A stretch of 64,000 nt of DNA from assembly GCF_003856835.1 (NCBI RefSeq), contig NZ_CP034145.1, positions 310,001 through 374,000 of the forward strand. Reading direction: 5' to 3'. Positions 49,274 to 52,954 of this stretch are shown here, piece by piece. Numbering within the stretch: position 1 is the stretch's first letter; every line of letters begins with the position of its first letter. The notes under the pieces were generated by a model. That model saw only the letters and a list, made by a program, of their open reading frames with translations, had not been told where the DNA came from and did not search any database. Both the position numbers and the translations under genes were made by a program. Origin of the DNA: Haloplanus aerogenes (GTDB lineage Archaea; Halobacteriota; Halobacteria; Halobacteriales; Haloferacaceae).

Positions 49274-49785
49274 CTACGATTCCTCGTCCAGTAACTCGTT
49301 CACGCTTTCGACCGGCGCGTAGTACCCTCGGCGTTCCCGCCACGTATCGAGCCAGTCGTCAGCAGTTTCGCTGGAACCGTCCCGCATTCGACACCTAGCA
49401 CGAGCAGTCCAATCGATCCCGTGACGGGAATCTCCCTGTTCTCGGCGACTCGGCGGGCGGCCAGGTCGTCCGTCGCTACCGTTCCACCGTGGGCGAGCAC
49501 TCCCGGTATCGATTCTGCTTCATCGGCGCCGAGCCGGTCACGGATATCCGAGTCGTCGGCTTCGGACGGTACCTCTCGAACGGGTAGCGACTCGCTGAGG
49601 GCATCGACTGCTACGCCGAGATACTCGTATTCGGACCGCGCTCCGCCTTCGATCTCCTTCCGAACGGCTGGTACGACGACCGACGATTCGAGTACTGTCG
49701 TGAGAAATCCAATTCCGTCCGTGCTGGCAAAGTTGCTGACGACGGTCGCGTCGAGAAATACCGGACCCGGATACCGTCCAGCCAT
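49274..49785 (-). pseudogene. Frameshifted PIN-domain toxin (DUF3368/VapC-like)
   Basis: The first 130 residues are PIN-like: FLDATVVSNFA (acidic site 1), an acidic middle (ADEAESIPGVLAHGG) and ATDDLAARRVAENREIPVTGS with the central Asp pair. After GTVPA the reading frame breaks near 49370. The other frame then continues sensibly (ETADDWLDTW, then RRGYYAPVESVNELLDEES) to a TAG at 49274, as in intact relatives. Restoring one lost G in ccagc(g)gaaac rejoins them. It directly follows the antitoxin gene (stop TAG then ATG). The toxin is therefore probably inactive. Confidence 0.75.
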
Positions 49786-49974
49786 CTACTCGCCAAGGTT
49801 CCGGGCGGTGTCGAGTTCCTCTTCCAGCTGGTCGTCCGTCCGCGGCCCGTACAGCGCGTCGAATCCGGCGTCCCGAAGCACTTCCTCGAACTCCCAGCGG
49901 GACATCCCTGCCGCTTCGGCGGCCTTCCCGAGAGAAATCTCGCCGAGGACGTACTGGCCAACAGCAGTCGCCAA
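49786..49974 (-). pseudogene. N-terminally truncated UPF0175-like antitoxin
   Basis: A 62-residue frame with the family's helix-turn-helix-like core, VLGEISLGKAAEAAGMSRWEF, and C-terminal toxin-contacting tail. The only in-frame start is TTG at 49974, in the middle of the DELATAVGQY helix. Upstream, RTIPADE is in the same frame but a TGA precedes it and no ATG or GTG exists. UPF0175 proteins normally have this N-terminal part, so the start has been lost. It pairs with the frameshifted PIN gene (zero-base gap). Confidence 0.6.
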
Positions 49975-51487: not shown

Positions 51488-52087
51488 GTGTTGCCGGTAA
51501 TCGAGTGGTTCGGGGGTGGGGTGTGGATGTCAGGAGCCGCGGGCTTTCTCGCCGTCGAGCGCGCGTGGCTGGCGTTCGCGCTCAACGCCGTCGGCTTCGT
51601 CGCCTGCGGGGCGTTCGTCCGGGTGTGCGGTCGTCGCGTCGTCCGGCGCGAGTTCGGCCGTGCCCACCCGGTACCGGCGAACGTCGTCGACCGGGGCCTC
51701 CGGCTAGCCGCCCGACTGATTCTCCCACCGTTGCTCGTCGGGACGTGGATCCTCGCGTTCACGGCAGGGATCCTCGTCCTCGCGCCGACGTTCGACGTGG
51801 TCGCCACGGCGCTGGCGTCGCTCGGGATCGCCGTGACCGTCAGAGCGGCGGCCCAGTACAGCGAGGGGTTCGCCGAGACGCTCGCGACGATGCTCCCGTT
51901 CGCCCTGCTCGGCCTCGCCGTCCTCGACGGCGTCGTGACGCGCTCGCTGTCGACCGTCGTCGACGTGCTCGACCGCCTCCTCGCCCACTGGCCAATCGCC
52001 GTCTACGGATTGGTGGCGCTGGTGCTCGTCGACCTGGCCTTTCGCGCCGTTGGCCTCGCGGTCCGAACGGTTCGTGACGCTGGATAA
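51488..52087 (+). CDS. Multi-pass membrane protein (hypothetical)
   Basis: A 199-residue protein with about five hydrophobic segments (about 12-32, 70-95, 98-115, 130-150, 165-190). The loop between the first two (RVCGRRVVRREFGRAHPVPANVVDRGLRLAARLI) is strongly basic and likely cytoplasmic. It resembles the N-terminal membrane part of mechanosensitive-channel-like proteins only loosely, and I assign no function. Start GTG at 51488 is favoured by the promoter; ATG at 51527 is the alternative. Confidence 0.6.
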   Translation: MLPVIEWFGGGVWMSGAAGFLAVERAWLAFALNAVGFVACGAFVRVCGRRVVRREFGRAHPVPANVVDRGLRLAARLILPPLLVGTWILAFTAGILVLAPTFDVVATALASLGIAVTVRAAAQYSEGFAETLATMLPFALLGLAVLDGVVTRSLSTVVDVLDRLLAHWPIAVYGLVALVLVDLAFRAVGLAVRTVRDAG

Positions 52088-52129
52088 TGGATTCGCACCC
52101 CGTCTCGGTACCCGGCCCCGTGAGCGTGT

Positions 52130-52280
52130 GAACGGAGCTTCGGCTACCCGTCGCCGAAGGCGGCGCCGTGGGGGAACGGCGCCGAGCACCGAGGTGCCAG
52201 TGGGGTGTGCCGGGCGCGCGGGTGGGGAGGATGGGAACTGAAGCCGGTGGTGCGCGCCCGGTCGTACACTTGCCAGCCCC
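52130..52280 (+). ncRNA. Candidate structured RNA: array of perfect hairpins
   Basis: Four perfect stems lie in about 125 bases of a 280-base intergenic gap: cttcggc/gccgaag (52138-52144, 52153-52159), cggcgccgt/acggcgccg (52161-52169, 52176-52184), gcac/gtgc with a cgag loop (52186-52197), and ccgggcgcgc/gcgcgcccgg (52210-52219, 52252-52261), extended by gtgt/acac (52205-52208, 52266-52269). The apical loop of the last contains aggatgggaactgaag, faintly like a kink-turn, and a four-run G-quadruplex motif spans 52212-52235. It ends just before a TATA box. No known RNA family is recognised. Confidence 0.4.
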
Positions 52281-52283
52281 CGA

Positions 52284-52291
52284 CTTAAATA
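52284..52291 (+). promoter_or_regulatory. TATA box upstream of the PIN-like pair
   Basis: cttaaata is the best TATA candidate upstream of the 39-residue gene. Transcription would begin near 52312-52318, giving about a 50-base leader to the GTG at 52368. Confidence 0.45.
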
Positions 52292-52367
52292 TGCGTCAGA
52301 CATGCGGATGCCGTCACGCGATACGCGCCGGGGAAGGCTCTTTGTGGGGGCCCACCGACGCTCACGT

Positions 52368-52487
52368 GTGACTTGGGCCGACCTCTTCGAACGCGCCGAG
52401 CGCTACGATCCGACCGAGTCGGACGTGACCGATACGCTTCGCCGGCACCGCGCGGACGACGCCGACGGCGAGGTTGCCGGCCGATGA
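52368..52487 (+). CDS. 39-residue helical protein (partner of PIN-like protein)
   Basis: A tiny protein reading (M)TWADLFERAERYDPTESDVT and then DTLRRHRADDADGEVAGR, two helices with a charged tail. Short haloarchaeal proteins of this shape recur next to PIN-like genes, as far as I recall. It starts with GTG at 52368 and its TGA overlaps the next ATG by 4 bases (ATGA), so translation of the two is coupled. Function is unknown; an antitoxin or adaptor role is only a possibility. Confidence 0.65.
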   Translation: MTWADLFERAERYDPTESDVTDTLRRHRADDADGEVAGR

Positions 52488-52954
52488 TCGAGCCGTCGCC
52501 CGCCCGCGTCACCGCCGACGCGGACGTACTCGCCGCCGACGTACTCGTCGGCGGGCCGTCGCGGGCGGCGCTCGATCACGTCCGCGAGCACTCGTGGCTG
52601 ACGCTCGTCGCCAGCGACCACTTGCTCGACGACGCCGAGGCCGTGATCCGCGAACTCGGCGACGCCGCCCTGGCCCGGGACTGGCGCACCCGCATCGAGC
52701 GGGAGTGCGAGTTCGTCTCCCACCCCGCCGAGGATCACCCGGCGCTCGCCACGGCCTACCGCGGCGGCGCGATGCACCTCCTGACGCTCGACGACTCGCT
52801 GCGATCCGCATCTGCCGGCGCCGCCCTCCGCGGCCGCGTCGAGACCAGTCCCCGTCATCCCCGCGCCTTCGACACGCTGTTCGACGCCGAGAGCCTCTAC
52901 CGCGAAGTCGTGGGCGGCGAGTACCCGGGGCCGGATCGGGACCCGCGGGCGTGA
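52484..52954 (+). CDS. PIN-like domain protein
   Basis: A 156-residue protein with PIN-like features: an N-terminal strand with acidic residue (RVTADADVLAADVLVGG), a middle helix run (SWLTLVASDHLLDDAEAVIRELGD), and MHLLTLDDSLRSASAG, similar to the lvTnD motif of PIN nucleases. The full acidic quartet is not certain, so nuclease activity is an inference. It overlaps the 39-residue gene by 4 bases. I do not know a named family with certainty. Confidence 0.6.
   Translation: MIEPSPARVTADADVLAADVLVGGPSRAALDHVREHSWLTLVASDHLLDDAEAVIRELGDAALARDWRTRIERECEFVSHPAEDHPALATAYRGGAMHLLTLDDSLRSASAGAALRGRVETSPRHPRAFDTLFDAESLYREVVGGEYPGPDRDPRA

Follow-up and report, generated by a model that had tools for sequence, protein, structure and literature searches.

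The window, a stretch of 64,000 nucleotides from Haloplanus aerogenes, almost certainly carries a small non-coding RNA gene on its minus strand, whose predicted transcript begins with a GC-rich hairpin that displays a long C-rich loop. The whole explanation that we favor, a minus-strand sRNA gene whose C-rich seed loops would regulate G-rich mRNAs by pairing, has in our judgment a slightly better than even chance of being right. The element has its own promoter, no coding potential, and a conserved structure, which are the marks of an intergenic small RNA gene.

Alignment of the homologues on the promoter strand gave a single architecture, consisting of a box, a TATA box, and the hairpin on the minus strand. 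In the window, the palindromic box GTCTGACG (52294 to 52301, minus strand), the core of CGTCWGACG, lies 12 nt upstream of the TTTA of the TATA box TTTAAG (52284 to 52289, minus strand). The box was present in all 78 homologues fetched, whose fetching partly selected for it, and the distance from box to hairpin, measured across many genera, was 42 nt in 62 of these homologues, 43 nt in 14, and 41 nt in 2. TTTA starts exactly 12 nt from the start of the box in the aligned homologues, and the TATA box lies exactly 30 nt before the first G of the hairpin (GGGCGCG) in 24 of the 26 homologues aligned first. The sequence of the spacer between the TATA box and the hairpin is free to vary but its length is not, as expected of a promoter and a start site. 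Other units behind the same promoter are mostly leaderless genes with the ATG 41 to 45 nt from the box, and because these ATGs sit at the same distance from the box as the first G of the RNA, transcription is predicted to start at about position 52259, the first G of GGGCGCGC, which keeps a fixed spacing to both promoter elements. This assignment of +1 is very likely correct to within 2 nt.

The original prediction had read the element on the plus strand, with an A/T-rich box adjoining it and a transcript of its own. The box is there (52284 to 52291), and the notion of a discrete, structured non-coding RNA gene that has a promoter to itself holds, but the strand was wrong, since the TATA box next to the element would drive transcription into it on the minus strand. 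The plus strand was rejected as the transcript; no promoter leads into the element on that side, and the folding of the whole stretch equals that of shuffled sequences.

The predicted 5'-terminal hairpin has 48 nt (52212 to 52259, minus strand), with the stem GGGCGCGC/GCGCGCCC enclosing a C-rich loop of 32 nt, ACCACCGGCUUCAGUUCCCAUCCUCCCCACCC (52220 to 52251, minus strand). Within this loop lies the core CCCAUCCUCCC (52225 to 52235, minus strand), the putative seed. Both covariation and folding support the hairpin. Compensatory changes were found in five of the nine stem pairs, with a score that none of 500 shuffles reached and far above that of slid controls, and thus the pairing proved to be conserved in relatives, a check that the original prediction had proposed. 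The closing stem is part of the minimum free energy (MFE) structure of all 78 homologues, in which the GC stem has 8 to 10 bp and the whole hairpin spans 38 to 57 nt. In the DNA, two further C-G pairs are present (52210-52211 with 52260-52261). The claimed 10-bp stem (52210-52219/52252-52261) is indeed present, and its four extra pairs correspond to GTGT at 52205-52208 with ACAC at 52266-52269.

Comparison with shuffled sequences, also proposed originally, gave a split answer. On the plus strand, the 171 nt from 52120 to 52290 fold no better than dinucleotide shuffles (MFE of −79 versus −79.6 ± 4.3; z of 0.14), and the claim of an unusual density of stems, in its original form, fails, whereas the 63-nt core of the window on the minus strand has a folding z of −3.6. 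Over the 78 homologous cores, the mean folding z was −2.9 for one strand and −2.8 for its complement; with values this close, folding speaks for the hairpin and leaves the choice of strand undecided, and it is the promoter spacing that decides for the minus strand as the predicted one.

The 78 homologous loops are 22 to 41 nt long (median, 31 nt) and contain 51% C and 12% G. CCCAUCC (CCCATCC in the DNA) occurs in 74 of them, and the longer loop core, CCCAUCCUCCC or CCCATCCTCCC, in 57. The predicted +1 bears no start codon, and loop length changes by numbers that are not multiples of three; both are features of a non-coding element. A small open reading frame on the minus strand (e.g., 51704-52303) was rejected, since indels among relatives break the frame.

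The remaining stems of the original prediction, of 4 bp (52186-52189/52194-52197), 9 bp (52161-52169/52176-52184), and 7 bp (52138-52144/52153-52159), were likewise confirmed in the letters. On the minus strand, the 9-bp stem closes a second hairpin, whose loop is UUCCCCC (52161 to 52184); it is conserved among congeners and, in this genus, probably belongs to a longer transcript. The small 4-bp hairpin (52186 to 52197, minus strand), whose conservation is confined to the genus, separates the two C-rich hairpins. The 7-bp hairpin CUUCGGC...GCCGAAG (52138 to 52159, minus strand) varies among congeners and may be a 3' tail or lie outside the transcript. Within 90 nt downstream of the core hairpin, runs of five C occur in 38 of the 78 homologues versus runs of five G in 1 of 78, and further C-rich hairpins follow the core in other lineages, including the genus of the window and Haloferax. 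In several genera, CTTTTC follows directly behind the hairpin and, together with a neighboring trkA gene that ends 51 to 75 nt from +1, suggests a minimal RNA of about 50 to 60 nt. We therefore infer an RNA of about 50 to 60 nt where the oligo-T stands directly behind the hairpin and of about 100 nt or more in the genus of the window.

The element is widespread in Halobacteria. A blastn search with a 221-nt stretch against 60 relatives matched 11 of 11 congeners and gave good scores in other genera and families. A covariance model (R1) found matches in 288 of 391 Halobacteria genomes, and a second model (R2), built from 65 homologues, found them in 307 of 391 genomes, which represent 72 of 84 genera; a genome usually has one copy. 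Several of the weak matches (E of about 1e-3 and above) were only the shared promoters of other genes, encoding ParA or DUF7518. By a hand count, the tally of 307 includes about 35 weak matches, and roughly 270 have an E value of 1e-5 or better. When 148 genomes from the phylum were searched, the 17 matches all fell in the order of the window, with none outside it and none outside Halobacteria. The gene is found in 15 of 15 genomes of Haloferax (genus g48, including H. profundi). Comparison shows single-copy orthology across Halobacteria.

Two genera depart from the common form. In genus g14 (loci L189 to L193, box at about 1503, on the RNA strand), the box, the TATA box, and the GGCGCG start of the hairpin are kept and the loop differs; UUCCCCC and then oligo-T are seen at this locus, which we regard as a putative diverged or remodelled orthologue. 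In genus g5 (locus L194, box at locus position 1503, plus strand), next to trkA, the box, the TATA box, and GGGCGCG are kept and the C-rich loop seems lost, a possible decay of the RNA.

The promoter is not restricted to the RNA gene. Each genome has a few leaderless genes behind GTCTGACG-N4/5-TTTA, encoding ParA-like ATPases, DUF7518 coiled-coil proteins, and small putative ribbon-helix-helix proteins (loci L134, L137, L138, L170, L174, L179, L182, L185, and L187, about 1.5 kb into most of them). The ParA-like and DUF7518 products were assigned by Pfam; the ribbon-helix-helix assignment was made by eye, with no Pfam match. The combination of box and TATA occurs six times in the genome of the window, and CGTCTGACG-N4-TTTA occurs 19 times in 9 other genomes, in which the reversed control gave 0 occurrences. 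The genes sharing this promoter look like a small regulon of a putative factor that would bind CGTCWGACG.

How might the RNA act? Seed-loop sRNAs are built in just this way, with a rigid GC stem that holds out an unchanging, C-rich single strand. With the precedent of mycobacterial B11 (6C), in which mutation showed the C-rich loops to be the seeds for pairing with target mRNAs (PMC12395582), base-pairing is favored. In our model, RNA polymerase would start at about 52259 on the minus strand, and the GC stem would present the loop (consensus, CAGUUCCCAUCCUCCCACCC) as a single-stranded seed, accompanied in the genus of the window by UUCCCCC. Several mRNAs may be bound by these seeds at G-rich sites, either GGAGG resembling a Shine-Dalgarno motif or other G-runs, so that the translation or stability of the targets is altered; transcription would probably be under the control of a factor that recognizes the palindrome GTCTGACG. 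Trans-acting base-pairing through the C-rich loop, suggested by the analogy to B11, is a proposition that we believe and doubt in equal measure.

The search for targets narrowed the model. A single dedicated perfect target was rejected: in three congeneric genomes, the complement of the 11-nt core, GGGAGGATGGG, has 0 to 2 further copies per genome, in non-orthologous places, and in genome G010 the sole perfect complement of the loop core is the RNA gene itself. CCUCC, which pairing with Shine-Dalgarno motifs would need in every loop, is present in 60 of 78, and the target class may therefore comprise wider G-runs. Most transcripts of H. volcanii are leaderless and without Shine-Dalgarno motifs (PMC6560208), which, together with the non-universal CCUCC, argues against a simple Shine-Dalgarno blocker. 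An enrichment of 16-nt complements over the reversed control was discounted, since the codon string GAG GAT GGG AAC is common in haloarchaea. The rRNA operon was also rejected as a target; GGATGGG occurs in it twice (5' leader and 16S-23S spacer), about as often as expected by chance. Separately, positions 1 to 1228 of the window lie inside an archaeal rRNA operon (3' part of 23S, 5S, and a tRNA).

The main rival of base-pairing is a protein that binds the loop. The RNA would then serve as a sponge or carrier, with a single-strand RNA-binding protein of the cold-shock, Lsm, or KH type being titrated or carried by the loop. The stable, 5'-blunt hairpin is compatible with such a role, no perfect conserved complement was found, and the loop core, kept in 74 of 78 homologues, is more rigid than a seed with multiple targets needs. 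On the other hand, the extra C-runs, whose arrangement varies by genus, resemble seeds rather than one fixed site, and we consider this explanation rather unlikely, though worth keeping in mind.

A role tied to the neighboring gene is less probable still. Outside the genus of the window, a convergent trkA gene adjoins the RNA gene in 59 of 71 loci, with its stop codon 51 to 330 nt from the +1 of the RNA (TrkA_N and TrkA_C domains were confirmed on one of these neighbors), and the RNA could be a cis-antisense regulator of trkA that controls potassium uptake. An antisense RNA reported for a trkA gene in a halite metatranscriptome (PMC7002113) is a candidate for the RNA described here. In the genus of the window, however, trkA is missing from this place and the RNA is kept, even elaborated and longer; the place that trkA takes in most other genera is occupied by a convergent gene for a membrane protein without a Pfam match (51488 to 52087, plus strand). 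The persistence of the RNA without trkA speaks against an element that serves purely as antisense or 3' UTR of that gene. Moreover, the distance to trkA is highly variable, and conservation falls on the hairpin loop and not on the overlap with trkA, which makes cis-antisense regulation improbable.

That the element lies 3' of trkA in most genera and that its core folds equally well on both strands would also fit a conserved 3'-UTR or terminator element of the trkA gene on the opposite strand, with no separate RNA gene. This explanation is very improbable, given that the distance from box and TATA to the hairpin is invariant on the minus strand, the distance to trkA is variable, and the element persists in the genus of the window without trkA.

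On the upstream side of the RNA, the locus is marked by a DUF7384 gene (52484 to 52954, plus strand; PF24109, E of 5.1e-75), which is found on the same side in other genera; elsewhere, dapA-like or other genes take this position. Two observations were made in passing. A conserved-looking leaderless open reading frame of 39 amino acids (VTWADLFERAERYDPTESDVTDTLRRHR...) at 52368-52487 on the plus strand shares its last four bases with the start of the DUF7384 gene, and adjacent PIN-like and short UPF0175-like reading frames at 49300-49974 on the minus strand resemble, by eye, a toxin-antitoxin pair.

The original prediction had also pointed to a kink-turn-like segment and a G-quadruplex in the large loop. 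The letters are present, including the claimed G-runs (GGGTGGGGAGGATGGG, 52220-52235), but they are the complement of the conserved loop and lie outside the predicted transcript. A DNA-level element, with a quadruplex on the G strand and an i-motif on the other, might have a part in chromosome biology or in transcription. As the complement of the loop core, GGGTGGGAGGATGGG is conserved, and the same palindrome precedes ParA-like genes. The compensatory stem changes and the exact spacing to +1 fit an RNA instead, the third G-run has only two G in most homologues, and we give a DNA element as little credence as a trkA terminator. An H/ACA pseudouridylation guide, the reading offered originally and suggested by a hairpin that is sometimes followed by ACA (within 8 nt in 39 of 78 homologues), has a negligible probability, as the hairpin of 38 to 57 nt is too short, conserves only its closing stem, has no guide pocket or upper stem with a k-turn above it, lacks the ACA in half of the homologues, and has no match in Rfam.

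The original statement that the element belongs to no known RNA family stands: Rfam 15 gave no match at the element, whether the window was searched at the gathering score, a 601-nt stretch up to an E value of 5, or 19 homologous loci. The same search, which had been suggested for H/ACA, SRP, and RNase P RNAs, matched none of these, and SRP and RNase P are ruled out by Rfam and by anatomy. The closest likeness is to 6C/B11 of Actinobacteria, which also consists of small GC-rich hairpins displaying C-rich loops and has a promoter and seed conserved over a broad clade. The two share no sequence homology (no Rfam match to the stretch of the window even at an E value of 5), and the haloarchaeal RNA differs in its archaeal TATA promoter, in a hairpin that begins at the predicted +1, in a long loop with CCCAUCCUCCC in place of a C6 run, and in its clade, the Halobacteria. 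Among haloarchaeal RNAs, sRNA132 of Haloferax volcanii is likewise intergenic, has a BRE/TATA promoter of its own, and contains a single-stranded stretch rich in pyrimidines (PMC6560208). Identity with it is excluded, since sRNA132 (138 nt) is found only in Haloferax according to its authors' BLAST search (PMC6560208) and is structurally different, whereas the RNA gene described here is class-wide.

The loop sequence was not found in the literature searched, which also seems to hold no description of the family, of its promoter, or of its conservation across the class. It is quite possible that the transcript was sighted earlier under another name. Haloferax mediterranei HM16_M is a 57-nt intergenic sRNA with predicted targets that include trkA (PMC5852579, Table 4); its size would fit the RNA gene described here, a lead taken from the published description, and HM16_M or the conserved H. 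volcanii sRNAs H225.2R, hts10, and htsf359 could be the same gene.

Published surveys emphasize how poorly haloarchaeal sRNAs are conserved; of 27 that were studied, 22 occurred in H. volcanii alone (PMC3956466). An RNA that most genera of Halobacteria keep in single copy, with promoter, stem, and loop all constant, is thus an exception and should have a core function. It is imaginable that it has been a core sRNA of the whole archaeal class since early Halobacteria, acting as a global post-transcriptional regulator that is wired by GTCTGACG to ParA-like and putative ribbon-helix-helix genes and thereby to replicon maintenance or the cell cycle, but this scenario is tentative and, as a whole, unlikely; we are similarly doubtful that the promoter box, taken by itself, connects the RNA to ParA or to replicon maintenance. 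The RNA gene would represent a new RNA family, an archaeal counterpart to the C-loop sRNAs of Actinobacteria, and is open to direct deletion and assay in Haloferax.
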